A DNA stretch of 64,000 nt, taken from contig NZ_CP060414.2 in NCBI RefSeq assembly GCF_014297595.2, forward strand, positions 496,001 to 560,000, read 5' to 3'. This document shows, in pieces, positions 14,577 to 54,506 of the stretch (positions are counted from its first letter, which is position 1; the number at the start of each line of letters is the position of its first letter). A program made the translations under genes and the position numbers. Origin of the DNA: Neisseria musculi (GTDB lineage: Bacteria; Pseudomonadota; Gammaproteobacteria; Burkholderiales; Neisseriaceae). The notes beneath the pieces were generated by a model that had not been told where the DNA came from, searched no databases, and saw only the letters and a program-made list of their open reading frames with translations.

Positions 14577-14600
14577 GATACCACAAACCGAAAGCCCGAT

Positions 14601-16500: not shown

Positions 16501-16556
16501 AAGCTTGTTTTCTCAATCTGTGTAAACAACGCTGGGGTTGGATTTTCTTAAATTTT

Positions 16557-16598
16557 AAGCCGTCTGAAAATCAACAAGTTTGGATTTTCAGACGGCTT
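16557..16598. terminator. DUS-type inverted repeat
   Basis: AAGCCGTCTGAAAATC with its complement around an ~8-nt loop: a long perfect stem upstream of the DUF2069 gene. The core is GCCGTCTGAA with AA rather than AG in front. Confidence 0.65.
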
Positions 16599-16650
16599 GA
16601 TTGAAACACTGAATGATGTTGAATGTCCAATGATGTGGAAAATGAAGGTA

Positions 16651-18847: not shown

Positions 18848-19028
18848 AAATGGATTGCTCTGTAAATAGGCCGTCTGAAATGTAAAGGCCGTTGGCGGCA
18901 TTGCAAAAAAGCGCAAAAGCATAGAAGCATACGCTATCAACAAAGACGATTTGCATGTTAAGATTCGCCGCATATCCAACGGTCGTCCAAGCAGGCGGCT
19001 GTCACAGTAACCATAGGAAGGACAAGCC

Positions 19029-19706
19029 ATGAGTCGCGTATTATTGGTAGATGATGATGTTTCGTTAACCGAGCTGTTAACTGAATACCTAACGGCCGAA
19101 GGTTTGAGTGTACACAGTGTACCCGATGGCGAAGTCGGCGTGAAAGAAATTTTATCCGGCCAATACGATGTTGTCGTGTTGGATTCGATGATGCCGAAAA
19201 TGAACGGTTTGGACGTATTGAAAAACGTGCGCAACCAAAGCACCGTTCCCGTGATTATGTTGACCGCCAAAGGCGACGATATCGACCGCATCATCGGTTT
19301 GGAAATGGGGGCCGATGATTATGTGCCCAAGCCCTGCACTCCACGCGAACTGCTGGCGCGTATTAATGCGGTTTTGCGCCGTTCAAAACAATCGGTCGAG
19401 CAAACCAGCAGCCCCAACAGCATTTCGGTGAGCGAAGTCGTGCTGTATCCGGCCAAGCGGCAGGCTGCCATTAAAGACACTCCGTTGGAGCTGACCAGCA
19501 CTGAATTCAACCTGCTTGAAGTATTGATGCGCCATGCAGGCCAAGTAGTGAGCAAAGAAACCCTGTCGGTTGAAGCGCTCGACCGCAAGCTGGCCAAATT
19601 CGACCGGAGTATTGATGTGCATATTTCCAGCATCCGCCATAAATTGGGCGATGCCTCACTGATTCAAACCGTTCGCGGCTTGGGTTATTTGTTTGTAAAA
19701 AACTGA
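19029..19706 (+). CDS. misR: OmpR-family response regulator MisR (CpxR-like)
   Basis: 225 residues. The receiver domain (1-~120) has the acidic pair DDD, phospho-acceptor Asp in VVLDSMMPKMNG, the Thr in VIMLTAKGDD and Lys in YVPKPCTPREL. The winged-helix DNA-binding domain follows (ELTSTEFNLLEVLMRHAGQVVSKE ... DVHISSIRHKLG). It lies 19 bp upstream of its partner kinase, the order of the neisserial misR/misS envelope-stress and virulence regulator. AGGA lies just before the ATG. Confidence 0.92.
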   Translation: MSRVLLVDDDVSLTELLTEYLTAEGLSVHSVPDGEVGVKEILSGQYDVVVLDSMMPKMNGLDVLKNVRNQSTVPVIMLTAKGDDIDRIIGLEMGADDYVPKPCTPRELLARINAVLRRSKQSVEQTSSPNSISVSEVVLYPAKRQAAIKDTPLELTSTEFNLLEVLMRHAGQVVSKETLSVEALDRKLAKFDRSIDVHISSIRHKLGDASLIQTVRGLGYLFVKN

Positions 19707-19725
19707 TGAAAAGATAAACAGCTCA

Positions 19726-21102: not shown

Positions 21103-21112
21103 ACGCATATTT

Positions 21113-21144
21113 AAGGCCGTCTGAAAGATTTTTCAGGCGGCCTT
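21113..21144. terminator. DUS-type terminator of misRS
   Basis: AAGGCCGTCTGAAA pairs with TTTCAGGCGGCCTT; one stem base differs (CAGGCGG instead of CAGACGG), which gives a G-T pair on one strand. Confidence 0.75.
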
Positions 21145-21906
21145 AAAGTTTTTAGGCACAAGGCAGTAAGCTGCTTTGTATTGGTAGAAATGCAACCGGG
21201 TATAATATCGAAATACGGTCAAATGTGCTGCCGTATAGGGGTGAAATTAAAAATTACCGAGTGGACATTTGGCCGGTTTGGTAGCACATCATGGTTTGAG
21301 GATACGCCACCGTTGTTTTGCAGGCTCGGGGGCTGGCAGGTATATTGGTGGTTGTGTGTCTGTTTCAAAATGTCGAAATGGCAGATACCTGCCGGTGCGG
21401 GCTTGGGTATGCTGTTTCAGATATAGTGAATACACAGCATGGCTGTAACTGTCCGCTTTGACCGCAGGGTGCGGTTACGGTAGCCGAAATAGGCGAAACT
21501 GCTGGATATTACAAGTCGCAGATATTGCATTTTTTTGCGGCAGACCGATAACTGTTGGCGGTAAACGATGATAACAATACCACACAGGCCAATCTGTATT
21601 CTTGAGCGGCGCATGAGTGCTGATACCTTGCTTACCGGTGCTGATCGGCTGTTAAGAATGGGCATCGACTGAGCGGTATTTCCGCTTCGGGCGGAGGGGA
21701 GGCTAAATATACCGAAAACTGCTCCGGCTGTGCGGGTTCAAGCAATTGCCGGCAGTCGCCAAATGTTTTGAGGCTGGCTGTCTGAAAACACATGGACAGA
21801 CGGCGGCAAAGCAAGTTATCTGCAAGCAGTTGAAAATAAAATATTGTTGTGAAAAATAATGTTCAGACGGCCTTGATTCCCTGATTTCATTTTCCAAGGG
21901 GTAAAC
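21145..21906. other. gene-free region after misS
   Basis: About 760 bp. Frames are short, lack binding sites and resemble nothing known to me. A lone DUS complement is at ~21,864-21,873, just upstream of the broken PIN gene. Confidence 0.5.
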
Positions 21907-30452: not shown

Positions 30453-30851
30453 ATGCACATAGATGATGAATTGCCGGCATACCGGGGCCTTGAGCGTTCG
30501 GCAACGGTGGCCGGTATGCCGATGGTTCCGGTGGTAACGGTAACTGCCGTTCCACTCTTGGTGGCGATGATTCTGCTGCCTTTTATAAAAGTGAAAGCAT
30601 TTTTGGTTCTGCTTTTTTCTTTGCCCTGTTTGGCTTTTATTTACACGCAGACGCAGCAGGACGATCAGGCACTGCGCATCATAGGCCTGTCGGTATTGGG
30701 GGTGCTGCGCCGCCGCAATTACCGGCTGTTCGGCAAAACCAATACGGTTTTGGGCAGCAAATACGGAAGACGCAACGATGATTACCAACGATTTTTTGAA
30801 CAGAATACTGAAAAAACAGCGGGGGCAGGAAGACAGTCTGCCCCGTTATAA
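30453..30851 (+). CDS. virB3: VirB3 inner-membrane protein
   Basis: 132 residues. A short cytoplasmic N-terminus with the family phrase YRGLERSATVAGMP precedes two membrane helices (VVTVTAVPLLVAMILLPF and FLVLLFSLPCLAFIYTQTQ) and the conserved DDQALRIIGLSVLGVLRRRN. Part of the inner-membrane platform with VirB4 and VirB8. Its last 74 bp overlap virB4 in another frame, longer than usual. Confidence 0.85.
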   Translation: MHIDDELPAYRGLERSATVAGMPMVPVVTVTAVPLLVAMILLPFIKVKAFLVLLFSLPCLAFIYTQTQQDDQALRIIGLSVLGVLRRRNYRLFGKTNTVLGSKYGRRNDDYQRFFEQNTEKTAGAGRQSAPL

Positions 30852-33198
30852 GCAGCATGTCGGCGACAAAGTCGTTTTGCTGGAAAACAACCGTGTGGCT
30901 TTTGCCGTCCGCCTCGAGGGAACGCCTTTTGAAGGGGTTGATGATTCAAGCGTTGTGGTCCGGTATCTGAATCTGAACAAAACGCTGGCATCGCTGGGCA
31001 AAGACAAAAGCAGCCGTTTGGGTTTGTGGCTCACCTATTGCCGCAAAAAAGTAGATTTCGAGCGCGAATACGGTTTCCACACGTCTTTTACGCGCGGCTT
31101 TGCGCACAAATATATGGAGAAACTGCGTCGCACCGACTATTTTGAAAACATCTACTACATTACCTGTGTCCTCAAATATGAGGACATCGATGATGCGCTG
31201 GAAGAGGCGGAAGAGTTACTTGAGAAGCTGACCGAACACCTTCAGGATTACGACCCCTATGTGTTAAAGGTTTACCGCAACGAATCGGGCGTGCTGTTTT
31301 CTCAGTTTTACGAATTTATCGGTATGCTTGCCAACGGCACTGACGGACAAATCCCGCTGGGTACGGCCAACGCCTACCGCACCATTCCCACCGCCGATCT
31401 GCACTTTGGCGCGGAGCTTTTGGAAATGCGCTGCCCGGATCGGACCCGTTATGCCACTTTGTATGATCTGAAAGAGTTCGGGCAGACGAAGGCCAAGATT
31501 ATGGTCAATGCCCTGAAGCTGCCGTGCGAATTTGTCTTTACCCAAAGTTTTACCTATATCCGCCCGGCCAAAATGATGAAGCAGATTGACGACCAGCTCA
31601 ACAAACTGGAATCGGTCGGCGATATGGCGCAAAGCCAGCATGAGGAAATGCTGGAAGCCAAAGGCCACCTGGCGGCGGGCGATTTGATGTTCGGCGAATA
31701 CCACGGTGCGTTGGTGGTATTCGGGGAAACGCCGAAAAAAGCCTATTCAAACGGCCAAACTGTAGCCGCCCGCTTCTTAAGCTCGGGCGGTTTCCGTTTT
31801 ATCCGCGCATCGCTCTCGGCCGAATTTACCTTCTTCAGCCAGTTTCCCGGCGCAACCGTCAAACCGAGGCCGTTTCCGAAGGCGACAACCAATATTGCCG
31901 CCTCTTTTCCGATGTTCAATTACGAGCACGGCAAAAGCCGGGGCAACCCTTTGGGGGACGGATCGGCGGTGATGCCGCTGAAAACCGAGGGCAATACGCT
32001 TTATGATTTCAACTTCCACTATACCGCCCCCAACGAAACCGTAACCCAAGGCGAGTATCCGGCCGGCCACACGCTGCTGATGGGCAAAACCGGCACGGGC
32101 AAAACCACCGCACTGGCTGCCATGCTGGCTTTTGCCGAACGCTTCAAACCCTATATTTTCGCGATGGATAAGGATAAAGGGCTGGAAATTTTTATCCGCG
32201 CCATCGGCGGAACCTATTTCCCCATCGATGCCGGTGTTCCGAGCGGCCTGAATCCGTTCCAATGGCCCGATTCGCCCAAGTTGCGCGACTTCCTCTACGA
32301 CTTGGTCGGCTCCTGCGTGCGCCGGCAGAACCAAGACAACACGGTCGAGGAACAAAAGCAGATTCAGATGGCCGTGGATACCGTGATGAATTTGGATTTC
32401 CAACACCGCCGTATGGGGGCTTTGCTGCATTCCGTTCCCCCGTCTGCCGAAGACAACAGCCTGTTTACCCGGCTGGAGGCGTGGTGCGGAAACGGGCGTT
32501 TCGCATGGTGCCTGGACAATCCCCAAAACCGTTTCAACCCCGATGAGTTTTACCGGGTAGGTTTCGATCTCACCGATATTCTGAAAGCCGGTTACCGCCC
32601 CACCGAACCGATACTGGCCTGTATGTTCTACATGAAAAACATCATGCTGGAGCGGGTGGCCGAAAGCCGGGGCGTATTGGCAACCGTGCTGGACGAGTTT
32701 TGGCTGATGGCCAAATACCCGACCACGCAGGATTTCATTATCGACGGTTTGAAAACCGACCGTAAATTGGGCGGGTTCCTGATACTGTCCAGCCAATCGC
32801 CCAAAGATGCCATTAATTCGCCGGTTTTCGACACGGTGGTCGAGCAGACGGTAACGAAAGTGCTGCTGCCCAACCCTGCTGCCGAGTATGAAGGCAATTA
32901 CCGGCGGCTCGGGCTGACGGAGAAAGAGTTTGCCGAAATGCGCAGTCTGGGCGAGAAAAGCCGGCAGTTTTTGGTGAAACAGAATCTCGGCAGTTCCATT
33001 GCCACACTCAACCTCCACAAAATGGATGACGAGATCGCGGTGTTGTCGGGAAATGCGGCCAACGTCCGCATCATGCACAAAGCAATGGAGCGTTGCGGCA
33101 GCGGGCATCCCGATGAATGGCTGCCGGTGTTTCATGAAATGAGAAAGGAGGCAAAAGCCGAACAGGAGAAACAGCAGAAACAGCCGCAGGCTGTATAA
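30778..33198 (+). CDS. virB4: VirB4 secretion ATPase
   Basis: 806 residues. An N-terminal CagE/TrbE-type domain leads to an ATPase core with Walker A LLMGKTGTGKTTAL (~residue 435) and Walker B TVLDEFWLMAKYP (~635). LILSSQSPKDAINSP and the C-terminal GEKSRQFLVKQNLGSS are also family traits. It powers pilus assembly and substrate transfer at the inner membrane. GGAAG lies eight bases before its ATG, which is inside virB3. Confidence 0.95.
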   Translation: MITNDFLNRILKKQRGQEDSLPRYKQHVGDKVVLLENNRVAFAVRLEGTPFEGVDDSSVVVRYLNLNKTLASLGKDKSSRLGLWLTYCRKKVDFEREYGFHTSFTRGFAHKYMEKLRRTDYFENIYYITCVLKYEDIDDALEEAEELLEKLTEHLQDYDPYVLKVYRNESGVLFSQFYEFIGMLANGTDGQIPLGTANAYRTIPTADLHFGAELLEMRCPDRTRYATLYDLKEFGQTKAKIMVNALKLPCEFVFTQSFTYIRPAKMMKQIDDQLNKLESVGDMAQSQHEEMLEAKGHLAAGDLMFGEYHGALVVFGETPKKAYSNGQTVAARFLSSGGFRFIRASLSAEFTFFSQFPGATVKPRPFPKATTNIAASFPMFNYEHGKSRGNPLGDGSAVMPLKTEGNTLYDFNFHYTAPNETVTQGEYPAGHTLLMGKTGTGKTTALAAMLAFAERFKPYIFAMDKDKGLEIFIRAIGGTYFPIDAGVPSGLNPFQWPDSPKLRDFLYDLVGSCVRRQNQDNTVEEQKQIQMAVDTVMNLDFQHRRMGALLHSVPPSAEDNSLFTRLEAWCGNGRFAWCLDNPQNRFNPDEFYRVGFDLTDILKAGYRPTEPILACMFYMKNIMLERVAESRGVLATVLDEFWLMAKYPTTQDFIIDGLKTDRKLGGFLILSSQSPKDAINSPVFDTVVEQTVTKVLLPNPAAEYEGNYRRLGLTEKEFAEMRSLGEKSRQFLVKQNLGSSIATLNLHKMDDEIAVLSGNAANVRIMHKAMERCGSGHPDEWLPVFHEMRKEAKAEQEKQQKQPQAV

Positions 33199-38976: not shown

Positions 38977-39023
38977 ACCCACCGCCGCGCCAACCGGCGT
39001 GGCGGTTTTCTTTGAAAAAAGCG

Positions 39024-40121
39024 ATGAGTGATTTGAATAAGGACGTAACCGTCCGCAATCTTTTGGATAAATCGGGCATCACCGAAAAACTGAACCGGCC
39101 GGGTGTAACCGAGGTTTTGATTAACCGCAGCGGGGAAATGTTTACCGAAGACAGCAGCGGTTTTACCCGTTATGAAAGCAGTGTGCTTACTTTGGGCAAT
39201 CTGATGCAGTTGGGCAATGCGCTGTGCGTATTCAACGGCAAGGCGTTAAATACGAAACACCCCATTCACTCTGTAACACTTCCTGACGGCGAGCGCGGCC
39301 ACATTATGATGCCGCCTTCATGTGAAGACGGCACGATGGTGTTTGCCTTCCGCAAACCGTCCGACAGCCGTTTCAGCCTGAGCGACTATATCGATACCGG
39401 CCGTCTGAAAGACTTTAACGATGTCTCCGCCCACGGCGTGCCTGAACATCGTGCGGCTGCGGAAATTGAAACAGACAGCCGTTATGTTCGAGATGTCTGC
39501 GACAAGATGAGGTTGCCCTACGATGTGAAGTTGGCCGACTGGCAGTATAAGATGTTGGAACATAAAGCCAACGGGGATTTGGTCGAATTTTTCAAAATTG
39601 CGATTACCCGTAAGTTAAATATCTGCATGGTTGGTGGTACGGGCTCGGGCAAAACCACGTTCACCAAAGCCCTTGCCGACTTAATCCCTGCCAACGAGCG
39701 TTTGATTACCATTGAAGATACCCACGAATTAAGTCTTCCCAATCATCCTAACCATGCCCATCTTTTCTATAAAGAACACATTTCGGCCAAAATGATTGTG
39801 GCTGCCTGTATGCGTTTGAAACCCGACCGCATTTTTCTGACCGAGCTTCGCGGGGACGAAGCGTGGGATTATCTTTCGGCACTCAACACCGGCCACCCGG
39901 GCGGCTTAACTTCCGTCCATGCCAACGATGCCCGCTCCGTCCATTACCGTATCGCGCAGCTGGCGATGGAATCCCCGGCCGGCCAAAATATGGATCATTC
40001 TTACATCTTGAATACGGTTCGGGCAACCATTGATGTGGTCTGCTATTTTGAAAAAACGCGCATGACCGAGCTTTATTACGACCCCGTGGAAAAGTTTTAT
40101 GCCGTGAGCGGCCGTCTGTAA
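39024..40121 (+). CDS. virB11: VirB11 hexameric ATPase
   Basis: 365 residues from ATG 39024 (a TTG at 39012 is an alternative). The N-terminal domain is followed by Walker A MVGGTGSGKTTFTKALADL (~residue 200), the Asp box TIEDTHELSL, Walker B-type FLTELRGDEAWDYL and the His box GHPGGLTSVHANDA. It works with VirB4 and VirD4 at the inner membrane to drive pilus biogenesis and DNA transfer. A DUS lies within the gene (GRLKD). Confidence 0.94.
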   Translation: MSDLNKDVTVRNLLDKSGITEKLNRPGVTEVLINRSGEMFTEDSSGFTRYESSVLTLGNLMQLGNALCVFNGKALNTKHPIHSVTLPDGERGHIMMPPSCEDGTMVFAFRKPSDSRFSLSDYIDTGRLKDFNDVSAHGVPEHRAAAEIETDSRYVRDVCDKMRLPYDVKLADWQYKMLEHKANGDLVEFFKIAITRKLNICMVGGTGSGKTTFTKALADLIPANERLITIEDTHELSLPNHPNHAHLFYKEHISAKMIVAACMRLKPDRIFLTELRGDEAWDYLSALNTGHPGGLTSVHANDARSVHYRIAQLAMESPAGQNMDHSYILNTVRATIDVVCYFEKTRMTELYYDPVEKFYAVSGRL

Positions 40122-41266: not shown

Positions 41267-41555
41267 GGCCGTCTGAAGCACCGCTCACAGTGTGGCTCAA
41301 TTTCAGACCACAACTGCGGCTCAGTTTCGGAATGGAACCGACAAAACAGGCATATAAAACCACACCGGAAACCGGGGAGTGGGCATCTGAAAATGCACCC
41401 CCCCGGTTTGTTTGCAAGTGGTGCACTTTTAGATGCTCATCGTGGTGCACTTTTAGATGCTCATAATGGTGTGTTTCAATCAAGGCCGTCTGAACGGGTC
41501 GGCAGACTCAAACCCGTCTGCCCGCCTTTGTGCGGGCATTTTTTCGGAGCGTGAA
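41267..41555. other. ssb-virD4 intergenic region
   Basis: About 290 bp containing single DUS at ~41,269 and ~41,483, the tandem 24-bp repeat at 41418-41465 and a small stem (CCCGCCTTTGTGCGGGCATTTTTT) at ~41,521 that looks like an intrinsic terminator just before virD4. Confidence 0.55.
41418..41465. repeat. two tandem 24-bp repeats upstream of virD4
   Basis: Two adjacent copies of a unit beginning GTGGTGCACTTTTAGATGC; they differ only in the last base. GTGCAC inside the unit is palindromic. A protein-binding site controlling virD4 is possible. Confidence 0.8.
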
Positions 41556-43625
41556 ATGGATAAACGCAAAATCGGTATTGGGATTGCGATAACCGGCATC
41601 GTTACTGTTTTGTCCGTTGCGGGCGGCCTGTATGCCGCCGCCGTACTCTATACGCAGTGGCTGGGGCTTAAAACCGCTCCTTCGGTATGGCTGCTGGTCA
41701 AATATTGGCAGCATCTCGACCAACTGCCGGAAAACATGATTTTTCCGCTCAAAGCGGCGACCGCTGCCGCAGGTTTGGTTCCGTTGTTGGCATTGGTGAT
41801 TATGCCGGCGGCGGTGTCTGCCAAGCCCAAACGCGAGCTGCACGGCTCGGCGCGGTTTGCCGGCCGTGGGGAAATCAAAAAAGCCGGTTTGTTGGAAAAA
41901 CAACCGTTGCTGTTTTGGCAAAAGCCCAAGCCCGATAAGTATCCCGATTTGATCATGGGAAAGTTCAAGGGGGAATATCTGCGTTGGCCGTCTGACAGCC
42001 CCGTCTATTTGGCCGCACGTCCGCGCAGCGGTAAGGGTGTCGGCTTTGTGATTCCCAACTGCCTGCATTACAACGGCAGCATGGTTGTCAATGACGTTAA
42101 AAAAGAGAATTTCTTCATTACGGCGGGGTTTCGGGCGGCTCACGGCCACAAAGTTTATTTTTTCAACCCGAGCGGCACCATGCCGTATCACGACCGCGAT
42201 CCGTCTGCACCGTTGATCAGTCATCGTTGGAATCCGCTGACTTATGTACGCCGCAATCCGATTTATACCTACAAGGATGCGCTGGCGGCAGCAGCGGTGT
42301 TTTATCCGTTACCGACCGAAGACCGGGGCAGCGCGAAGTTTTTCCAGCAGGAAGCGCAAAAGCTGTTCGCCGGATTGTTGCTGTATTTGATCGAGACTGA
42401 GAAGGAGCGGGATTTAAGCCGGTTGGAAAACAAAACCACGATGACCAACCTGTTCCGCCTCACCGCTCCTGCAAACGGTCAAACCCTGCAAGAGTGGATA
42501 CGGGCGGAGTTTGAACGGCGGGCAGCGCAGCCGGATACCATACAGCTGAGCCGCAACTGCCAAACCCTGCTGATGGGATTTGCCAACGGCAATGCCAAAA
42601 CCGGCGGCGATATTTTGTCCACTATGGCCGCGCCGCTGGCGATTTTTCTTGATCCTGCGGTTGAAGCGGCCACCGGCGGCGATGATTTTTACCTGGATGA
42701 TGTGCGCCGCGAACGGATCACAATTTATTTGGGGGTTTCGCCGGAAGAGTTGAAAGTGTACGGTACATTACTCAATCTGTTTTTCAGCCAGCTTGTCGAT
42801 GTGAATGTCCGGCAGGGACTGCCCCAAGACAATAAGGAATTGAAATACCAATGCCTGCTGATGTTGGACGAGTTCACGGCGCTCGGCCGCGTTCGCGCCA
42901 TTGAAGAAGGTATTGCATATTTGGCCGGTTACGGCATCCGTCCCGTTCCTGTTTTTCAGTCTCCTTCGCAAGTAGAGAACGTCTATGGCAAAGCTGCAAG
43001 CCAAACGTTCTTTTCCACATTCGCCGCCCGTATCGTTTTTGCTCCCCGGGAGCAGCAAGACGCAGAAGAGTTAAGCAAGCTGATAGGCTATTACACCTAT
43101 AAGGCCAAATCTTCGTCGCGCTCCCGCGGCAAAAACAGCAGCAGCAGCGGCAGCAACATCAGTGATCAAAAACGCGCGGTGATGAATCCTGATGAACTGA
43201 AAACGATGCCGAACACCCACTGCATCATCACCATGGAAGGCGTGAACGCCGTTTTTGCCGACAGAATCGTTTATCACGAGGATCCGGTTTTTAGCGGACG
43301 GGCTAACTGGCCCGTGCCGGATGTACCCGTTTTAGAAGTTGCCGTTACCCGGAAACAACCGCCGAAAGTAATCACACCGGATTATGTTTCGCCCGAAGAG
43401 ATGGCCTCTTTCCGCTGGCAGGAAGCCGCCAATGCCGGCGAGCTCGCCCATGCGCTGCTCGCTGCGCTGGTGCCGCCGGGCAGCCCGCCGGAGTTTGTTG
43501 CCCGACTGGTGCCGGCAGTGGCGCAAAACTGGGGCGAAGGCAGCCTGCCCGTTATCGCGAAGATATTGAAAGAAACGGCCGGTATCGATGCGGCAGCGGC
43601 AGATAAAGAAGAAAAAGCCGCTTAA
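41556..43625 (+). CDS. virD4: VirD4/TraG coupling protein
   Basis: 689 residues from ATG 41556 (GGAGCGTGAA upstream). Two N-terminal membrane helices (IAITGIVTVLSVAGGLYAAAV and TAAAGLVPLLALVIMPAAV) are followed by HGSARFAGRGEIKKAGLL, Walker A AARPRSGKGVGFVIPN (~155) and Walker B LLMLDEFTALGRV (~434). It docks the relaxosome and protein substrates onto the VirB channel. A Ser-rich stretch (KSSSRSRGKNSSSSGSN) precedes the conserved C-terminal domain. Confidence 0.95.
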   Translation: MDKRKIGIGIAITGIVTVLSVAGGLYAAAVLYTQWLGLKTAPSVWLLVKYWQHLDQLPENMIFPLKAATAAAGLVPLLALVIMPAAVSAKPKRELHGSARFAGRGEIKKAGLLEKQPLLFWQKPKPDKYPDLIMGKFKGEYLRWPSDSPVYLAARPRSGKGVGFVIPNCLHYNGSMVVNDVKKENFFITAGFRAAHGHKVYFFNPSGTMPYHDRDPSAPLISHRWNPLTYVRRNPIYTYKDALAAAAVFYPLPTEDRGSAKFFQQEAQKLFAGLLLYLIETEKERDLSRLENKTTMTNLFRLTAPANGQTLQEWIRAEFERRAAQPDTIQLSRNCQTLLMGFANGNAKTGGDILSTMAAPLAIFLDPAVEAATGGDDFYLDDVRRERITIYLGVSPEELKVYGTLLNLFFSQLVDVNVRQGLPQDNKELKYQCLLMLDEFTALGRVRAIEEGIAYLAGYGIRPVPVFQSPSQVENVYGKAASQTFFSTFAARIVFAPREQQDAEELSKLIGYYTYKAKSSSRSRGKNSSSSGSNISDQKRAVMNPDELKTMPNTHCIITMEGVNAVFADRIVYHEDPVFSGRANWPVPDVPVLEVAVTRKQPPKVITPDYVSPEEMASFRWQEAANAGELAHALLAALVPPGSPPEFVARLVPAVAQNWGEGSLPVIAKILKETAGIDAAAADKEEKAA

Positions 43626-45275: not shown

Positions 45276-48251
45276 ATGAGCGACTACAACGAAATCCGCA
45301 ACGCTTTAAGCCATATCGATGCCCATGACCGCGACACCTGGATACAGGTCGGTGCCGCCCTGAAAGACGAAATGGGCGATGACGGCTTCAATCTTTGGGA
45401 CAACTGGTCTCAAAGTGCCGACAACTACAATGCCCGCGATGCCAAAACCGCTTGGAAGTCGTTCAAGCCCGGCCGCGTCCATATCTCCACATTGTTTTAC
45501 CATGCGCGCCGAAACGGTTATACCCCGTCCCAACCCTACACGCCGCCGACACCCGAACAGCAGGCGGTGCGGGCTGCCGAACTGGCTGCGCGGCGGCAGG
45601 CCGAAGAGCAGGCACAGGCCGAAGCACAGGCTAAAGCGAAAGAAACGGCACGGAGGATTTGGAACCGCTCCGCCCCCGCCCGCGCAGACCACCCCTACCT
45701 GGCGGCCAAAGGCATCACCTCGGCGGCGGCTGTTGCCGGATTGCGGCAGAACCGTTACCGCGGCGACGATAATCTGGTGGTGCCGCTGTATTACGGCGGC
45801 GAAATCGTCAACGTGCAGTCCATCAACCAAAGCGGGCATAAGCGTTTCCTCTCCGGCGGGCAGGTTAAAGGCGGTTACGCCGTGGTAGGCAATGCCGGGC
45901 AGCTTTCAGACGGCCTGGTGATTGCGGAGGGCTACGCTACTGCCGCCAGTATCCATCAGGCAACGGGCAAGCCCGTGATTGTGGCGTTTAACGCCGGCAA
46001 TATGGTGGCGGTGTCGGAGCGGCTGGCGCAAAACCTGCCTGCCGGTGTGCCGGTGGTGCTGGCGGCGGACAACGACGCATCGCAAACCGGCATTCACAAG
46101 GCGCGGCAGGCGGCGGCATGGTTCGGCGGCCATGCCGTGGCGGTGCAGCCCGAATTCACGATGACGCAGATTCAGGCTTATCAGAACACCAACGGGCCGA
46201 ACCTGCCCAGCGACTTCAACGACCTGCACCAACTGGCCGGCACCGAAGCCGTGCGCGGACCCATCGAAGCGGCTTTCAGACGGCCGCAGCCGGCTCCCGA
46301 AGCGGGGCAGGAAGTGAACGGACCACGGCTGCAATCTGCCGTCAGGCCGTCTGAAGGCCGCCCCGAAGCAGCGCAGGCAATCCGCGAACCGCGGCCGGCA
46401 GCGGCTGCCGCTCCCGAAACCGAACCGCCGCGCCCCGCTGCTGCGCCCACTATGAGCGATGAAGAATGGGCGGCGGTTGTTGCCGAAGAAGCCCGTCTGT
46501 CAGGCTATCCCGCCCCGCCGCCTGCCGAAACGCCAAGCCAAGCCGCCCCAACCGGGGCGGCTTCTTTACAGGAACACGATATGGACAGTAAAGCCCAAAC
46601 CCAAACCGAACCCCGAACCGCAGCGGCGGCCGCTGAAGCCGCCGCTGCCCCCGAAGCCGCCGACAGGCCGTCTGAAAACAACACCATCGAATACGCCGCG
46701 CTGCGCCGCACACGGGAACCCGAACCGCATCAGAGCATTGACCCCGGCCACGTTTTCGGCCACGGGCGTGAACACAGCCCCGCAGCCGGCAGCGGCAAGG
46801 ACCAAGCCGATAAGGAAACTCCGGCCGCAGCACGGCCGAGTACAAATTCTGAACCCGCCGCCGCGCCGGAAGCCGGGCAGCCCGATTTGGCCGCAGCCGG
46901 CCGCAAAAAGCCCGTTACCGACCTGAACTACCGCATCCCGCCCGAAAGCATCAAGAGCCGTTATGTGGTGGCCGACGGCAAATACCTTTCCGCCGCCAAC
47001 CATACCACCGTGCTGTTTACCGACAGCGGCAAAAAAATCAGCACCGCCAAAACCGATGCGCAGACCGTCAACGATATGCTCGAAGTGGCCAAAGAAAAAG
47101 GCTGGGACAGCATCAAAATCAGCGGCAGCAAAGAGTTTAAATCCATGATGTATGTGGCCGCCGAAAGCCGGGGCATCCGCACCAGCGGCTACCGGCCGAC
47201 ACCGGAAGATTTGGCCTTGCTGGAGCGGCTGCGGCAGGAGCGGTCGTTAAACGCCATCGAGCCGCAACCCGGGCGCGCCCCTGCCGTTGCCGAAGCCGAA
47301 AAAGTGCCGCCCGCACCTTATCCCGGCGACAAACGGCCAAGGCCGTCTGAAACCCGACAGGGGGCAGCGGCCAAAACCGCAGCGGCCGCAGAAGCAGGCG
47401 AGCGGATAGTCAATGCGGGCAATGCCCCGTATCAGCACAACCCAAAAAACCAGCCCAGCCCGTATATCGTGTTGGAAAAAGACGGCAGGGAGCGCACCGT
47501 TTGGGGCGTGGACCTGCCCGACGCGATGGCGCGCAGCGGTGCCGAAATCGGCGACCGCATCCGCCTGCATTCGCTGGGCAAACAGCCGGTGGAAATCGAA
47601 GTTGCCGTGCGCGATGAAGCGGGCAACGTTACCGGCATGGAGAAAAAAGAGGTTGGGCGTAACCTGTTCAGAATGGAAATCGTGCAGGACCTCCGGCAGC
47701 GGCAGGAACAAGAAATACCGCCCGATCGCGAGCCGGAAAAGGTGTTCGCCAAACCCGATGTGGAGATGCTGTCGAAAGCCGACAAAATGCTTGCCCAAAA
47801 CGAATTGCCCTCCGATGCCGCCATCAACGCCTCCCATACCGCCGACACGCAGCCCGGCGTGCCGTTGCCGGCAATCGGGCAATCCGAGATCCGCTCCGAA
47901 GCGGCGGTGGCGGCAGGCCGTATGAAAACGGCGGCACTGGAAACCGGTTTTATTGCCGCCAAAGGCGTGTATATGGACAAAGCCGCCAAGCTCTCGAAAG
48001 CCAACAGGCAGCACCTGCAATGGCACGAGCGCAATGTTTTGGACACCATCCGCGGCCTGAAAGGCGATGCCCGCACGTTGGCCCTGACCAACTATTACGA
48101 GCACACCGCCAAGCAGATGAGCGGAAGCAGGCTGAAACTGCCCAAGCCGGTCAAACAGCCCGCCCACCGGCAAACGCCGGCCAACCCAACAACCGAACGC
48201 AACCAACGGCAGGAGCGGCAGCAAGGCAGAGAAATGGAAATGGAACGTTAA
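45276..48251 (+). CDS. conjugative-type TOPRIM primase with LPD7-like domain
   Basis: 991 residues. PriCT-2 at residues 1-70 (WIQVGAALKDEMGDDGFNLWDNWS). A zinc-free TOPRIM-like primase domain at ~125-330 has VIAEGYATAASIHQ (catalytic Glu) and VVLAADNDASQTG (DxD). A long Ala/Pro/Glu-rich linker follows. At ~545-660 lies an LPD7-like domain (VADGKYLSAANHTTVLFTD, KGWDSIKISGSKEFK), then ~720-800 a KfrB-like segment (RTVWGVDLPDAMARSG). The last ~100 residues share a module with ArdC and the 446-residue protein. Such primases are often exported to the recipient. Several DUS are translated as RPSE. Confidence 0.88.
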   Translation: MSDYNEIRNALSHIDAHDRDTWIQVGAALKDEMGDDGFNLWDNWSQSADNYNARDAKTAWKSFKPGRVHISTLFYHARRNGYTPSQPYTPPTPEQQAVRAAELAARRQAEEQAQAEAQAKAKETARRIWNRSAPARADHPYLAAKGITSAAAVAGLRQNRYRGDDNLVVPLYYGGEIVNVQSINQSGHKRFLSGGQVKGGYAVVGNAGQLSDGLVIAEGYATAASIHQATGKPVIVAFNAGNMVAVSERLAQNLPAGVPVVLAADNDASQTGIHKARQAAAWFGGHAVAVQPEFTMTQIQAYQNTNGPNLPSDFNDLHQLAGTEAVRGPIEAAFRRPQPAPEAGQEVNGPRLQSAVRPSEGRPEAAQAIREPRPAAAAAPETEPPRPAAAPTMSDEEWAAVVAEEARLSGYPAPPPAETPSQAAPTGAASLQEHDMDSKAQTQTEPRTAAAAAEAAAAPEAADRPSENNTIEYAALRRTREPEPHQSIDPGHVFGHGREHSPAAGSGKDQADKETPAAARPSTNSEPAAAPEAGQPDLAAAGRKKPVTDLNYRIPPESIKSRYVVADGKYLSAANHTTVLFTDSGKKISTAKTDAQTVNDMLEVAKEKGWDSIKISGSKEFKSMMYVAAESRGIRTSGYRPTPEDLALLERLRQERSLNAIEPQPGRAPAVAEAEKVPPAPYPGDKRPRPSETRQGAAAKTAAAAEAGERIVNAGNAPYQHNPKNQPSPYIVLEKDGRERTVWGVDLPDAMARSGAEIGDRIRLHSLGKQPVEIEVAVRDEAGNVTGMEKKEVGRNLFRMEIVQDLRQRQEQEIPPDREPEKVFAKPDVEMLSKADKMLAQNELPSDAAINASHTADTQPGVPLPAIGQSEIRSEAAVAAGRMKTAALETGFIAAKGVYMDKAAKLSKANRQHLQWHERNVLDTIRGLKGDARTLALTNYYEHTAKQMSGSRLKLPKPVKQPAHRQTPANPTTERNQRQERQQGREMEMER

Positions 48252-48266
48252 CGAAAAGGAGAATGT

Positions 48267-48482
48267 ATGTCGGAAAATCATCTATTGCTTGAATTGCAGC
48301 AAAAGGAGCCGCTTGAGAATTTCTTCATGCCGGAAGAAGCTGAAGTGTTTTTTAGTTTAAGCCCCGAGCAGCAGCAACGCTATTTGGATGCCTGCACTTC
48401 AGAAGCAAGCATACAGGCTTATTTGAACAATCCCGACGAGCCGCAGGCTGCAAAACAACTGCTTTCAGACGGCCTGCGGTAA
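48267..48482 (+). CDS. small hypothetical protein
   Basis: 71 residues; AAAGGAGAATGT precedes the ATG. It is acidic and probably helical (LLLELQQKEPLENFFMPEEAEVFF). The last residues are a translated DUS (LLSDGLR). No family recognised. It lies between the primase and ardC genes and is likely co-expressed with both. Confidence 0.6.
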   Translation: MSENHLLLELQQKEPLENFFMPEEAEVFFSLSPEQQQRYLDACTSEASIQAYLNNPDEPQAAKQLLSDGLR

Positions 48483-48541
48483 AACCGGTGGAAATATGCC
48501 CCGTACTTTAACAGTGCGGGGTATTTTGTTTGGAGGAAGAA

Positions 48542-49972
48542 ATGAGCAAAGAGCAACAGAATACCCAAAATGCACAGGAGCAATACGCCGAAGCCATTGC
48601 CGCGGAACTTATCGCGCATTTGAAAAGCGGAACGGCCCCGTGGCAGAAGCCGTGGGAGCCGACCATGAGCGGCCTGCCGTATAACCATCTCACCGGCAAC
48701 ACCTATTCGGGCAGCAACACGCTGAAATTGATGATGCAGCCGTATGACGATCCGCGCTGGCTGACTTACAAACAGGCGCAGTCGGTCGGCGCACAAGTCC
48801 GCAAAGGCGAAAAAGGCGTACCGCTGATACGGTTGGTCACCCATGTTGAGCAAACGGTTAAGGACGAAAACGGCAAGCCGGTCTTGGACGACAAGGGCGA
48901 GCCGCAGAAAGAGTTTGTCAAACTCGACTTTCCCTATATCCGAACATTCAGCGTTTTCAATGCGGAGCAAATAGACGGTCTGCCGGAATGGCACCCCCTA
49001 CACTCGCCGCAGCATGAATGGGAAAACCATCAGCGTGCCGAAGCTCTTCTTTCCGCATCAGGCGCGGAAATCAGACACCGTCACGGGGATTCCGCCTATT
49101 ACCGGCCGTCTGAAGATCACATTGTGTTGCCGCATAAAGAGCAGTTTCCGAATGCCGGTCTGTATTACGCCACCGCTTTGCACGAACTCGGGCATTGGAC
49201 AGGGCATGAAAGCCGGTTAAACCGTGAGCTTTCCGGCGGTTTCGGCACATTGTCCTATGCCCGGGAAGAGTTGCGGGCCGAAATCGCCTCCATGATGTTG
49301 ACGCGGCAGCTTGGATTGCCGCATGACCCGGGCCGCCATGCCGCCTACATCGGCAGCTGGATACAGATTTTGACCGACGAACCCACCGAAATTCTTAAAG
49401 CCGCCCGCGATGCCGACAAAATTCAAAGTTATGTGGTGGGGTTTGAAAAAGAGATCGGTCACGAACCGAAGAAGGCTCCGACCGCACCTTCGGAGAAAAC
49501 GCCCGAAAACACCGCCGCCCCTGCAACGCCGTCTGAACACGTCTCCGCAGCCGGGCGTGTCGAAACGTCCGAGCCGCATTACTCCGAAAAAATCATCGGC
49601 CGGCTGGCAGAATCCCACGGTTGGCACAAAGAAGACGGCAAAACCGCCTCAAAAACCATCGAAGGTGCGGGCGGCGGAATGCTTAATCCCGAAGCCGTGC
49701 GCGATGCCCGCCGCGCCATTATCAATGCCCTTGAAGACAAGTATCAGGCTGCCCGCGATGCCTATGTGAAGCAGACCGTTTTGCTGCCGCCCGCCCAAAA
49801 ATCCCGCCGCAACCTGCTCGAATCCCAAATGGAAGCCTTGATTAAAGGGCTCCCCGAGCAGACGCAGATGCAGGCGCGCATTAATTTTTATACCAGCCGG
49901 GTTGGAGAAAGATTACGGCAGGTTCAGAAGCCCGATCCGCCCGGACAAAGCGAAATTGCTTTCGAACGGTGA
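48542..49972 (+). CDS. ardC: ArdC antirestriction protein
   Basis: 476 residues from ATG 48542 (GGAGG upstream). An N-terminal ssDNA-binding ArdC domain (AELIAHLKSGTAPWQKPW ... LPYNHLTGNTYSG) is followed by a zinc metallopeptidase-like domain with ALHELGHWTGH (~213-221) and AREELRAEIAS, the layout of IncW ArdC. ArdC protects incoming single-stranded DNA from restriction. An Ala/Pro linker follows, then a C-terminal ~80-residue module shared with the primase and the 446-residue protein (see findings). Confidence 0.93.
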   Translation: MSKEQQNTQNAQEQYAEAIAAELIAHLKSGTAPWQKPWEPTMSGLPYNHLTGNTYSGSNTLKLMMQPYDDPRWLTYKQAQSVGAQVRKGEKGVPLIRLVTHVEQTVKDENGKPVLDDKGEPQKEFVKLDFPYIRTFSVFNAEQIDGLPEWHPLHSPQHEWENHQRAEALLSASGAEIRHRHGDSAYYRPSEDHIVLPHKEQFPNAGLYYATALHELGHWTGHESRLNRELSGGFGTLSYAREELRAEIASMMLTRQLGLPHDPGRHAAYIGSWIQILTDEPTEILKAARDADKIQSYVVGFEKEIGHEPKKAPTAPSEKTPENTAAPATPSEHVSAAGRVETSEPHYSEKIIGRLAESHGWHKEDGKTASKTIEGAGGGMLNPEAVRDARRAIINALEDKYQAARDAYVKQTVLLPPAQKSRRNLLESQMEALIKGLPEQTQMQARINFYTSRVGERLRQVQKPDPPGQSEIAFER

Positions 49973-50005
49973 AACACGCCGCTGCGGTTTGCCTTTGAAA
50001 GAAAA

Positions 50006-50032
50006 GTAAGGCATGATTAAAAACAACCTTAC
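50006..50032. promoter_or_regulatory. inverted repeat upstream of the AbrB-PIN module
   Basis: GTAAGG-N15-CCTTAC, ending 14 bp before the antitoxin ATG. Possible autoregulatory site. Confidence 0.35.
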
Positions 50033-50045
50033 CCGGAGAATTGAT

Positions 50046-50327
50046 ATGGGCACCACCCTGAAACTGACCGCCAAGGGTCAGATTACTTTGAAAAAAGAAC
50101 TTTTGCAGCACCTCGGAGTCGGCATAGGCGAACTGCTGGAAGTGGAGAAACTGCCCGACGGCGGCCTGAAAATCCGTGCAGGGGAAACGGAAAACAGACA
50201 CGGCATCATGAATATGGCCGGCTGTCTGCAAGGTAAAAGCAGTGTGCGTTTGAGTATAGAAGAAATCAACGAAGCCATTGCCGAATCTTATGCACAGGCC
50301 GGAATGCGGGGATTGGGGCGCGAATGA
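50046..50327 (+). CDS. AbrB/MazE-type antitoxin
   Basis: 93 residues from ATG 50046. A swapped-hairpin AbrB fold (TLKLTAKGQITLKKELLQHLGVGIGELLEVEKLPDGG) is followed by an acidic helical tail (RLSIEEINEAIAESYAQAG) that would bind the toxin. The stop overlaps the start of a PIN toxin (ATGA). DUS translated as GGLKI. Confidence 0.88.
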   Translation: MGTTLKLTAKGQITLKKELLQHLGVGIGELLEVEKLPDGGLKIRAGETENRHGIMNMAGCLQGKSSVRLSIEEINEAIAESYAQAGMRGLGRE

Positions 50328-50719
50328 ACATTACCGCAGACACCAACATCCTTGTACGCCTGCTGGTAAACGACGATCCGGCCCAACCGGCTGCCGTCAA
50401 ACCGATACTGAGCCGTGCCGGGCGGATTTGCATACCGACCAGCGTGTTTTGCGAATTGGTGTGGGTTTTGTCGCACAGCTACCGTTTCAGCCGAAAGGAC
50501 ATCTCTTGGGCTGTGCGCGGACTGCTGCAAACGGACAACCTTGTCTGTCATACCGGGGAAATCCTTGCCGGTCTCGCATTATTGGAAGCGGGTGGGGACT
50601 TTGCCGACGGTGTGAACAAATACGCCGGCCGGCATCTTGGCGCGGACACCTTCGTTACCTTTGACCGCAAAGCCGCTTTGCTGCTGCGCAACCGGGGCAG
50701 AAAAGTTACCGTTCCCTGA
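50324..50719 (+). CDS. PIN-domain (VapC-like) toxin
   Basis: 131 residues. PIN acidic residues lie in ITADTNILVRLLVND (first Asp), TSVFCELVWVL (Glu), GGDFADGVNKY and GADTFVTFDRKAA (C-terminal acids). VapC-type toxins are ribonucleases. Translationally coupled to the AbrB-type antitoxin. The combination AbrB + PIN is a common VapBC variant. Confidence 0.9.
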   Translation: MNITADTNILVRLLVNDDPAQPAAVKPILSRAGRICIPTSVFCELVWVLSHSYRFSRKDISWAVRGLLQTDNLVCHTGEILAGLALLEAGGDFADGVNKYAGRHLGADTFVTFDRKAALLLRNRGRKVTVP

Positions 50720-50779
50720 GTAGCACCCTTCCGCCCCGGATCCGAACGAATCCGAGGCATTTTTTAAACCCCGTCATAA

Positions 50780-50811
50780 AGGCCGTCTGAAATATTTTTT
50801 CAGACGGCCTT
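50780..50811. terminator. DUS terminator after the AbrB-PIN module
   Basis: Inverted uptake pair with an A/T loop followed by a T run. Confidence 0.8.
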
Positions 50812-50829
50812 TTTACGTTTGGAGATGCC

Positions 50830-52170
50830 ATGCCCGAAGCGGAATATGGAGAAAGCCCCGGTTTTTATATCACCGAAAAGCGTTTGGGCGGCCGGGCGGC
50901 CTACGGTGCGGCCAAAGCCAAAGGCAGAACGGCACTGGATTACCGCCAATGGGTGCAGGTGCGCACGCCTGAGTTTAAAGCGTGGTTCGGCGATTGGGAG
51001 CATGCCCGAGTTCCCGACCGGCTGCTCGATGCCAACGGCGAACCGAAAATCTTTTATCCCGAACCGGTTGCCGACACTTACGGTGTTACCCGCGACATTT
51101 CCCGTACCGAAAAACAACGGCGGCGTGTTCGGGAGACGGTAACGGAATACGTCAAATACGGTGCCGACGGCCAAATATCGGCAATATCGACACAACCCCG
51201 GGAAGGCTGCATCCCCGAACGGCGCACCCGCACCTGCACCGTTTACGAAGACGTTGCCAAAACGGAGACGGTGCATGAAATCCTGCGCTTCAGCCGGGTT
51301 GGTGACGGTGCTTTCCATATTCATGTTCAAGGCAGCAACCGCTTTGTCGGCGGCCTTCTGTTAATGCCGGAAAAAAGCGGACAGCAAGGTTTTTCGGGCA
51401 ACCGCCCGCCAGCCAAAGCCGACGGCAGCCGCTACTTCGTGCCATACCGTGCCGAAATAGCAGCAGCCTACCGGGGCAAAGGCGTAGGCTCGGCACTTTA
51501 CCGTTTTGCCGAACAGTGCATCGGCGAAGAAATCTATCCGGCCCGTTCGCAAACGGATGCCGCCAAAGGCCTTTGGCACAAACGCAACCGCCAAGGCGGT
51601 TTCGGGGGATATTTTATGAATGCAGAAGGGCAGATAAAGTCTGCCGTCAACAACAGCGGTTTGTTCGACCGCAACAATCCCGATACCGGCGATCCTTTGC
51701 CTCGGGAAATCATGGAAAAAGCCCGCCGCCTTTACCGGGGACGGATGGCGGCAGAACCGCCCGGCTTGGAAAAACACCGTCTTCAAATACAGGAGCAGGC
51801 TATGGAGAAAAGCCACTTAAACCACAGCCCTCCCATTATGCAGCAACCACAAAGGCCGTCTGAAATTTCAGACGGCCTTTCTGTTTTGGAAAACACCATG
51901 GAAAAAGAACCGGTACGCGAAGCGGATATTGCGCACGGCGGCCTGAAAGCGGCCAAGCACCATTACCAAATGCACATGGCCGGCGCCGGTACGGCGGAAA
52001 AACTGCGCTGCGCTTTGCTGGAGCACGCGATGGAAAAAACCCTATCCGGCCTGCCGCCGGATATGCAGGTATTGGCGCGCACCCATTTTTACCGGTCAAT
52101 GGTGCGGAATTCCGCGGAACGGCAGTATGCCGCCGCCGTGCCGCAGCCCGATACCGGCTTGGAACGGTAA
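50830..52170 (+). CDS. 446-residue polyvalent-type protein with GNAT-like segment
   Basis: GGAGATGCC precedes the ATG. N-terminal RTPEFKAWFGDWE and central GQIKSAVNNSGLFDRNNPDTGD resemble linker phrases of phage and conjugative 'polyvalent' proteins. A GNAT-like stretch (YRAEIAAAYRGKGVGSALYRFAEQ) lies at ~205-230. A complete DUS inverted pair is inside the gene (51851-51881, read as RPSEISDGL), followed by an ATG at 51898, so the last 90 residues might once have been a separate gene. That end is the module shared with ArdC and the primase. Function unknown. Confidence 0.7.
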   Translation: MPEAEYGESPGFYITEKRLGGRAAYGAAKAKGRTALDYRQWVQVRTPEFKAWFGDWEHARVPDRLLDANGEPKIFYPEPVADTYGVTRDISRTEKQRRRVRETVTEYVKYGADGQISAISTQPREGCIPERRTRTCTVYEDVAKTETVHEILRFSRVGDGAFHIHVQGSNRFVGGLLLMPEKSGQQGFSGNRPPAKADGSRYFVPYRAEIAAAYRGKGVGSALYRFAEQCIGEEIYPARSQTDAAKGLWHKRNRQGGFGGYFMNAEGQIKSAVNNSGLFDRNNPDTGDPLPREIMEKARRLYRGRMAAEPPGLEKHRLQIQEQAMEKSHLNHSPPIMQQPQRPSEISDGLSVLENTMEKEPVREADIAHGGLKAAKHHYQMHMAGAGTAEKLRCALLEHAMEKTLSGLPPDMQVLARTHFYRSMVRNSAERQYAAAVPQPDTGLER

Positions 52171-52770: not shown

Positions 52771-53832
52771 ATGCACCGTAAAATAGATGACTGGTTTTTG
52801 GGCTATAAAACCCGTGCCGTTAAAGCCAAAAAAGATGGCGGGCTGTATTTCGGCAACGGCCGCCGCAGCAGTGCCAAGCCTTTGAAGCCCGGCAGCGGTT
52901 TGGCCAACCTGCGCGCTGCCGCGCTCAAACACCCGGAGGTGATGGTCAAAATCCCCAAACGGCTGAGCAGTAACTCAAAAGGAATGCGCGGCGTGCGCAA
53001 CCACCTGGACTATGTGTCGCGCAACGGCGAAGTGCCGTTGGAAACGCAGTCCGGCGAAAAACTGCACGGCAAACGTGCGGTTAGGGGTTTTGCCGATGAT
53101 TGGCGCAAACTGGGCATTCCCGAAGAGAGCAAGCATAAAGAGGCGCTGAATATCGTGCTGTCGATGCCCGAAGGCACGCCGCCGGAGGCGGTGTTGAACG
53201 CCGCCCGCAGCTTCGCGGCCGAGCAGTTCGCCGGGCATCATTATGTGTTCGGCCTGCACCACGACAGCCGCGATCCCGATGAACCGAAACACCCCCACGT
53301 CCACCTGTGCGTACTGATGCGCGACGGGTTCGGGCAGCGGCTCAACCCGCGCAAAGCCGACCTGTTCGAGTGGCGCGTGCGCTTTGCCGAAAAGCTGCGC
53401 GAAGAAGGGGTGTTGTGCGCGGCCACCAAGCGCATACACCGGGGCAAAACGCAAAAGCCCGAAAACAGCCTGCTGCGTGCCATGCGCCGGCGCGGCGTGC
53501 TCTCCAATGCGGCAAGACAGCAGGCTGCTGAATTGATGGAAGCGTTGAAAAACAGCGACCGCCCCAAGCATCCTTTCTTGAAGGAAACCCTACGCACACG
53601 CGGCATCGTGCTCGAACAATACGGGCAAATCGCCAAAGAGCTGTACAAGATGGGACATAAAACCGAAGCCCGTATCATCGGCAAACTGGCAAAAGACGTG
53701 GCCGGGCAGGACTTCACGACCAAAGCACAGAACCAATACGACAATATCCGCGCCCGCCGCCCCGCCATCGGGCCACTGCAACAGCAGCCGGCAGCGGAGA
53801 AAGCCAAACAGGATAAGGATATTCAGCGTTGA
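52771..53832 (+). CDS. MOBP-type relaxase
   Basis: 353 residues, AAGGAG upstream. MVKIPKRLSSNSKGMRGVRNHLDYVSRNG holds the likely catalytic Tyr of motif I, and EPKHPHVHLCVLMR is the HxH metal site (motif III). It nicks oriT and pilots the strand into the recipient. It is short for a relaxase: no helicase or primase domain, but a ~150-residue helical basic tail. The nearest candidate nic sequence is ~8 kb to the right (62006-62014), not adjacent as usual. Confidence 0.88.
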   Translation: MHRKIDDWFLGYKTRAVKAKKDGGLYFGNGRRSSAKPLKPGSGLANLRAAALKHPEVMVKIPKRLSSNSKGMRGVRNHLDYVSRNGEVPLETQSGEKLHGKRAVRGFADDWRKLGIPEESKHKEALNIVLSMPEGTPPEAVLNAARSFAAEQFAGHHYVFGLHHDSRDPDEPKHPHVHLCVLMRDGFGQRLNPRKADLFEWRVRFAEKLREEGVLCAATKRIHRGKTQKPENSLLRAMRRRGVLSNAARQQAAELMEALKNSDRPKHPFLKETLRTRGIVLEQYGQIAKELYKMGHKTEARIIGKLAKDVAGQDFTTKAQNQYDNIRARRPAIGPLQQQPAAEKAKQDKDIQR

Positions 53833-53898: not shown

Positions 53899-54207
53899 AT
53901 GCGTACCATGACAGCCAGTAATGCCCAAAACAACTTCGGAGATCTGCTGGATACCGTCCGCCGCGAGCCGGTGCTGCTGACTAAAAACAAACGGCCTGTA
54001 GGCGTGTTTGTTTCTTTAGAAGACTTGCAGGGGACTTATTTGGCCGAGATGCTGATAGAGAAAGAAGGAGGATACGATGAATGGGTGCAGGCCAAGGTCG
54101 GGAAATCTTTGGCGCGTTTTCAAAAGGACGGCACCCGGGGAAAAGCCGCTGCCGATGCCCATACCGATGCCTTGGACAATATCCGCAATAAACTGCAAAA
54201 CCGTTGA
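53899..54207 (+). CDS. Phd/YefM-type antitoxin
   Basis: 102 residues (start 53899; ATG 53908 also possible). The Phd fold MTASNAQNNFGDLLDTVRREPVLLTKNKRPVGVFVSLEDL is followed by an acidic tail. AAAATAGC is repeated at ~53,853-53,870 upstream and could be the operator. Paired with the ParE-type toxin directly downstream. Confidence 0.9.
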   Translation: MRTMTASNAQNNFGDLLDTVRREPVLLTKNKRPVGVFVSLEDLQGTYLAEMLIEKEGGYDEWVQAKVGKSLARFQKDGTRGKAAADAHTDALDNIRNKLQNR

Positions 54208-54215
54208 GCCGTCCG

Positions 54216-54506
54216 ATGTATGCAATTGTTTATGAAGCTGAAGCACAAGCGGATTTGCTCGCCATTCTTTCCTACTATGCCGATGAAGGCGGTATGGCAT
54301 TGGTGGAAAACATCGGCAGCCGCATAGAAACGGCATTGGCCGGATTGGCTTATCTGCCTTACCGCAGCATTGAAAGCAGTTTGGTTCACGGAGCAAGGGA
54401 ATTTATCCTAAACAATCTGCCGTATAAAGCGTTTTTAGTGATAGATGAAACCGAAAAAACCGTTTATGTGTTGAATATCGTACATACCGCCCGACAGTTT
54501 CCCTAA
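54216..54506 (+). CDS. RelE/ParE-type toxin
   Basis: 96 residues from ATG 54216; a TTG at 54204 that overlaps the antitoxin stop is an alternative. YAIVYEAEAQADLLAILSYYADEGG, PYRSIESSLVHGAREFILNNLPYKAFLVID and VYVLNIVHTARQFP give the ParE/RelE core. ParE members poison gyrase and RelE members cut mRNA; which applies cannot be told. Followed by an intrinsic terminator. Confidence 0.88.
   Translation: MYAIVYEAEAQADLLAILSYYADEGGMALVENIGSRIETALAGLAYLPYRSIESSLVHGAREFILNNLPYKAFLVIDETEKTVYVLNIVHTARQFP

Follow-up and report, generated by a model that had tools for sequence, protein, structure and literature searches.

A common C-terminal tail on helper proteins and toxins of Neisseriaceae conjugative elements is a probable VirB/D4 export signal

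Our analysis of a 64,000-nucleotide stretch of the Neisseria musculi genome (G000:C1:496001-560000; hereafter, the window) and of its relatives in Neisseria and other Neisseriaceae revealed a homologous C-terminal tail on primases, ArdC proteins, and toxins, among other proteins, of conjugative elements. Judged from the sequences, this tail probably constitutes a C-terminal VirB/D4 export signal of these elements, which would work in the manner of the BID domain while being unrelated to it in sequence. No description of the tail module was found among the open-access papers listed in literature searches.

RESULTS

Three proteins of the window carry homologous tails

The primase, ArdC, and 446-residue proteins were found as open reading frames (ORFs) where a preliminary description of this DNA had placed them, and all three end in the residues ER (Table 1). 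The same description had aligned their C termini. Local alignment of the last 130 residues gave scores of 61 for primase and ArdC, 52 for primase and the 446-residue protein, and 84 for ArdC and the 446-residue protein; shuffled controls averaged approximately 30 (standard deviation, approximately 5) and reached the respective score in 1, 7, and 0 of 2,000 shuffles. In these pairwise alignments, the similarity between ArdC and the 446-residue protein is clear, and both pairs that include the primase are weaker when taken singly. A profile built from the three window tails (A1) was run against 83 genomes from this family and matched in 29 of them, with E values reaching 6.9e-42 outside the window's own genome. 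Since the A1 profile finds unmistakable members beyond that genome, we conclude that the tails are homologous, and the proposed alignment is upheld by the significant scores as well as by the profile search.

Table 1. Positions of tail carriers, tails, and relevant conjugation genes in the window
Feature	Position	Strand	Basis
Primase (PriCT_2, Toprim, LPD7), 991 aa, tail carrier	45276..48251	+	ORF; Pfam
Primase tail module, residues 870-991, end EMER	47883..48248	+	Iterated profile
ArdC (ArdcN and zincin domains), 480 aa, tail carrier	48530..49972	+	ORF; Pfam
ArdC tail module, residues 388-480, end AFER; three helices and disordered end predicted	49691..49969	+	Iterated profile; AlphaFold2
446-aa polyvalent protein, weak GNAT match (below Pfam cutoff), tail carrier	50830..52170	+	ORF; Pfam
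Tail module of 446-aa protein, residues 341-446, end GLER	51850..52167	+	Iterated profile
MOBP relaxase, 353 aa, without detectable module core	52771..53832	+	Pfam; NCBIfam MobP1; hhalign
Relaxase C-terminal residues DIQR, ending of the tail kind	53818..53829	+	C-terminal comparison
VirD4 coupling protein, 722 aa, candidate receptor	41457..43625	+	Pfam; NCBIfam; distribution
VirD4 C-terminal extension, approximately residues 643-722, predicted helical (moderate confidence); putative receptor	43383..43622	+	
VirB4 ATPase, same element as tails	30778..33198	+	NCBIfam
VirB11 ATPase, same element as tails	39012..40121	+	NCBIfam

According to the ORF map, the tailed genes adjoin mobC and the relaxase gene. 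Two small gene pairs that look toxin-antitoxin-like by eye, one AbrB/PIN-like (50013-50719) and one Phd/ParE-like (53899-54506), sit among and after the tailed genes, and the tail profile matches neither. Separately, primase residues 705 to 789 (47388-47642) gave a match to the MobP1 relaxase model, in its C-terminal part, with an E value of 2.5e-10; from its sequence, we take this region for a KfrB-like domain, a second module common to primases and relaxases of other elements.

The module forms the C terminus of otherwise unrelated proteins

An iterated profile located the module on 69 ORFs of the fetched Neisseriaceae loci, some of which are fragments or relics. It was C-terminal in all 69, the best match ending at most 39 residues from the C terminus, and Pfam placed several unrelated domains upstream of it, so the expectation that the module would recur solely at C termini was borne out. 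The known Pfam domains of the three window proteins likewise lie exclusively N-terminal to the tails, as had been described for their unrelated catalytic domains. When 47 proteins were scanned with Pfam (46 carriers plus L067:610-1263, in which the ending is present and the module absent), LPD7 was matched in 13, PriCT_2 and Toprim_3 in 11 each, ArdcN, MPTase-PolyVal, and Zeta_toxin in 9 each, Fic in 2, and ART-PolyVal in 1. The carriers are primases, ArdC, GNAT-like proteins, unnamed proteins, and toxins of two types, zeta and Fic.

One zeta carrier (L041:17009-17899) lies directly 3′ of a 79-codon ORF that occupies the place of an antitoxin gene and has no antitoxin match. A Fic carrier (L044:2725-3588) is preceded by an ORF of 69 codons, which matches VbhA only weakly (E value of 0.04, below the cutoff). 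The window's own genome encodes a further zeta protein with the module beside a shortened primase (L077:6555-8821), a relic of a related element; a second site in that genome (L004:11700-12951) holds relics of ArdC-type and 446-type tails and a relaxase fragment near transposase genes.

The catalytic part of the window ArdC is 93% identical to that of the L041 ArdC over 304 residues, or 91% over 328 residues; the tails of the two proteins are 33 to 36% identical. Over 100 residues, the window ArdC tail and the tail of L046:8633-9868 are 61% identical; the N-terminal part of the latter protein gave no BLAST match to ArdC at E values of up to 1. Similarly, two proteins whose N termini are unmatched have tails 80 to 82% identical to that of the L041 ArdC, and in genome G081 the tail of a Fic protein is 54% identical to that of a primase-type protein. 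Sequence comparison therefore shows that tails have been swapped between proteins with unmatched N termini.

The module is a predicted helical bundle with a conserved ending

An alignment of 44 tails (A3) was used for AlphaFold2 prediction. Carriers with matches ending short of profile position 88 or starting past position 20, tails more than 85% alike, and a few fragments removed by hand were left out, and because of these omissions the share of rows with a terminal arginine (43 of 44) is biased upward. In the 102-residue ArdC tail, helices were predicted at residues 9 to 39, 43 to 60, and 65 to 88, with a mean pLDDT of 90 to 95 over residues 21 to 80 and a poorly predicted end. The module is thus predicted to be a three-helix bundle with a disordered linker. 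In the tail alignments, a linker of variable length is followed by a C-terminal acidic-hydrophobic-x-arginine sequence, the arginine being conserved while the linker before it varies freely. A structure search yielded no clear solved relative among the matches listed.

The Pfam library, which presumably contains models of both the BID and the XVIPCD domains, gave no match to either model in the three window proteins at E values of up to 1. BID was also absent among the Pfam families of the carriers, considering the best 25 of 26 and the best 25 of 41 families.

The relaxase shares the ending of the carriers

The relaxase is an obligate substrate of a conjugative type IV secretion system (T4SS). 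In relaxases of the Neisseriaceae elements, a variable linker leads to endings such as DIQR, EIPR, DISR, DITR, DIDR, and DIER. We counted endings in 23 Neisseriaceae loci, of which 21 came from a relaxase search and were chosen without regard to the module and two (L180 and L182) were chosen by VirD4; the gene sets consisted of the longest nonoverlapping ORFs rather than annotated genes. Arginine was the last residue of 34 of the 37 carriers and 23 of the 24 relaxases but of only 22 of the 368 other genes. The four-residue pattern, fixed after inspection of carriers and relaxases so that the other genes serve as the control, was matched by 25 of 37, 20 of 24, and 2 of 368, respectively, and one of the two matching other genes is an ORF of the degraded element L114. 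An earlier, smaller count had omitted L122 and L123, which are both included here. In a separate ORF count, 63 of the 69 carriers had a terminal arginine, as did 27 of 31 relaxase ORFs and 24 of 361 other ORFs of at least 200 aa. Among the exceptions, the L123 carrier ends in ISY, and the L040 relaxase has one extra residue past the arginine.

The module core was not detectable in the relaxase (hhalign probability of 1.4%), and therefore relaxase and carriers have only about four residues in common. The primase and relaxase of G082 are identical over their last nine residues, and those of G065 are identical at seven of nine. Matching of endings inside elements gave a P value of 0.009 with one lineage included and of 0.35 when that lineage and near-duplicates were removed, so the within-element match hangs on this single lineage.

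Presence of the module follows one type of VirD4

A VirD4 of the window type (>600 bits) was found in 23 of the 83 genomes, and the module was present in all 23, in 21 by the first profile and in G082 and G065 by the iterated profile, which was applied to stretches of these two genomes rather than to all 52 module-negative ones. Among the 60 genomes without a window-type VirD4, the first profile detected the module in 8. In G056 and G064 it lies near a more distant VirD4, and the VirD4 near it in G037 is broken; G014, G071, and G072 hold short or broken pieces of the module; in G055, the VirD4 is approximately 100 kb away; and in G008, the module is present and no VirD4 was found in the genome. 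Fisher's exact test of VirD4 type against module, by the first profile alone in the 83 genomes, gave a P value of 3e-11, which is indicative only because the genomes are not independent. The preliminary description had made its export reading depend on the module being confined to VirB/D4 elements and not equally common without a T4SS. As far as could be computed, neither expectation was contradicted: the module follows one VirB/D4 type (23 of 23 genomes with the window-type VirD4 against 8 of 60 without it), with G008 and G055 as exceptions.

Nine genomes with only other VirD4s were devoid of the module by the first profile, and in the stretches around six of them (L183-L190, L196, and L197), both the module and this type of relaxase were absent; the terminal pattern was matched there by four ORFs of L189, all short and nearly identical. 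The VirD4s of module elements bear a C-terminal extension, predicted with moderate confidence to be helical. The other-type VirD4s of L183, L185, L187, and L189 stop before this extension, and some other VirD4s bear different extensions. That the extension is the receptor for the tails is our guess.

Endings and tails beyond the Neisseriaceae

In G254 and the Advenella loci, two of five relaxases have a terminal arginine, and none of the three that lie beside carriers does (L097, L119, and L120). On the Advenella plasmid pWTk445, the relaxase, ArdC, and primase all end in ER, and a broad terminal pattern is matched by 4 of 51 genes, namely, these three and one unrelated gene. Three PromA-type plasmids gave 1 of 42, 1 of 54, and 1 of 50 genes, each time a neighbor of the primase gene, with a KfrB domain in the two of these plasmids that were scanned; the last residues of their primases are ERTR, and those of their relaxases are EQSR, GRGR, and KSQ. 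The MOBF plasmids R388 and R46 gave 0 of 35 and 0 of 40 among the genes examined. Across loci L118 to L178, a terminal arginine occurred in 43 of 61 relaxase ORFs and 148 of 848 other ORFs; the broad pattern was matched by 22 of 61 and 18 of 848, respectively, which makes the terminal signal weaker in this wider set.

The IncU plasmid pRA3 gave 3 of 38 genes with the broad pattern (PRTase, ArdC, and a membrane-like protein). On this plasmid, PRTase, ArdC, and LPD7 primase have a common C-terminal module of their own, with alignment scores of 74, 94, and 74 against approximately 30 for shuffled sequences, each reached in 0 of 2,000 shuffles. These three proteins end in ER (TENER in the primase), as does the relaxase (DEDER). 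The genes concerned lie at 3620-4759, 10360-11355, 11394-13088, and 13227-16292 of pRA3 (L208). There was no detectable homology between the pRA3 core and the Neisseriaceae core (hhalign probability of 0.2%). Since pRA3 has its own, sequence-unrelated module, element-wide common tails may recur as a solution.

On the Trb-type Haemophilus parainfluenzae plasmid NZ_CP063114 (L207), a zeta toxin (16535-17425) ends in KTKKFKR and an ArdC-type protein (18931-21573) in KTSKIKR; by their sequences, these basic endings are perhaps another element-wide tail. A Fic protein of the Burkholderiales (L137:14945-15610) without the module core ends in DLER.

DISCUSSION

An export signal is the simplest account of the tail because it covers the C-terminal position, the promiscuity, the exchange of tails, the ending of the relaxase, and the tie to VirD4. 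The predicted helical domain and its flexible linker would present the terminal acidic-hydrophobic-x-arginine carboxylate to VirD4, which, perhaps via its C-terminal helical extension, would bind both the relaxase and the tailed proteins by this ending and hand them to the VirB channel for translocation. In the recipient, primase and ArdC may help the incoming strand to survive, and tailed Fic and zeta toxins would arrive along with the DNA. The ArdC of R388 stops after the catalytic domain, and its overexpression in donors did not improve conjugation in the experiments described in passages of PMC7213743; since this tail-less ArdC gave no help from donors, the result is consistent with the tail as the delivery part. 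Passages of PMC5512222 mention that pSa ArdC and RP4 TraC1 are transferred, which suggests that in other cases the ArdC-like region may be enough by itself.

The main rival to export is docking at the relaxosome. The tail would then bind a common partner, be it the relaxosome, single-stranded DNA, MobC, or another hub, and gather leading-strand proteins around the DNA in transfer, and it would not act as a secretion signal. The carriers of known domain content, primase and ArdC, do act on or near incoming DNA, their genes adjoin mobC and the relaxase gene, and a helical bundle suits protein binding. However, the tailed Fic and zeta toxins have no need of DNA docking, an ending in common with the relaxase is explained equally well or better by a common reader at the channel, and presence of the module follows the VirD4 type; we therefore regard docking as unlikely. 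Less probable still is a role in the donor, where the tail would control stability, solubility, or antitoxin binding and the terminal arginine would be a degradation or antidegradation signal. Restraint matters for those carriers that are toxins encoded behind antitoxin-like ORFs, but primase, ArdC, and relaxase have the tail or the ending without an antitoxin, and control in the donor predicts no link to VirD4 type.

It is also conceivable that only the helical core matters, the likeness between relaxase and carrier endings being due to chance or to drift of a gene end that they have in common. This likeness extends over only about four residues, in L118 to L178 the terminal arginine is frequent on relaxase ORFs but found on other ORFs too, and the relaxases of L097, L119, and L120 are without it. 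Against such a coincidence, which we consider very improbable, stand the low background of terminal arginine among other genes of the Neisseriaceae loci and the conservation of the arginine despite a freely varying linker.

Export thus being the reading that we prefer for the Neisseriaceae elements, a more general proposal can be made tentatively, with doubt prevailing. MOBP/VirB elements could carry a substrate code in which a free acidic-hydrophobic-x-arginine ending, mounted on lineage-specific helical modules, would recruit the relaxase, helpers, and toxin-antitoxin toxins (Fic and zeta) to the VirD4 extension; toxins would be injected along with the DNA of the Neisseriaceae elements, and Advenella, PromA, and IncU plasmids would use this code with other cores. 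The general code is less likely because endings outside the Neisseriaceae are less regular. If it were true, secreted proteins could be read from genome sequences.

Passages of PMC5675462 point out that most conjugative T4SSs use short signals, which are notoriously hard to predict. Here, we describe a recognizable module with a near-invariant terminal residue on helpers and toxins, together with a candidate receptor segment on VirD4. If the tail is a signal, sequence would suffice to predict the proteins sent in mating by this family, and the signal could be tested by deleting a few residues.

One parallel is IncU pRA3, which has tails on PRTase, ArdC, and LPD7 primase and ER endings that include the relaxase, with a core unrelated in sequence to that of the Neisseriaceae. 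XVIPCD is a C-terminal module found on diverse effectors of the killing T4SSs of Xanthomonadaceae and read by VirD4. The tail resembles it as a C-terminal module on diverse proteins; unlike XVIPCD, its carriers belong to a conjugative element. T4SS signals of the Agrobacterium type are short, basic, and C-terminal. They share arginine in the C-terminal ending with the tail, whereas the ending here is acidic-hydrophobic-x-arginine behind a predicted folded module. Short basic C-terminal signals are also mentioned in passages of PMC5675462. The domain repertoire of the carriers is that of the polyvalent proteins described in passages of PMC5512222 (ArdC, LPD7, zincin, Toprim, ART, and GNAT), where such proteins of conjugative elements are proposed to be delivered along with DNA and where, in those passages, no common C-terminal module is described.

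The BID domain of Bartonella Beps, VbhT, and rhizobial relaxases would be a functional analogue. As passages of PMC5675462 describe it, BID is a C-terminal helical VirB/D4 signal common to relaxases and toxins of the Fic and PezT types and was spread by terminal reassortment, which for VbhT resembles the exchange of tails seen here. The Neisseriaceae core differs in being undetected in the relaxase, where only the ending was found, and translocation is shown for VbhT in that source, whereas the present case is known from sequences. Recruitment of toxin-antitoxin toxins as interbacterial effectors is an existing idea, which the present case extends to zeta and Fic toxins from a second lineage whose tail is unrelated.
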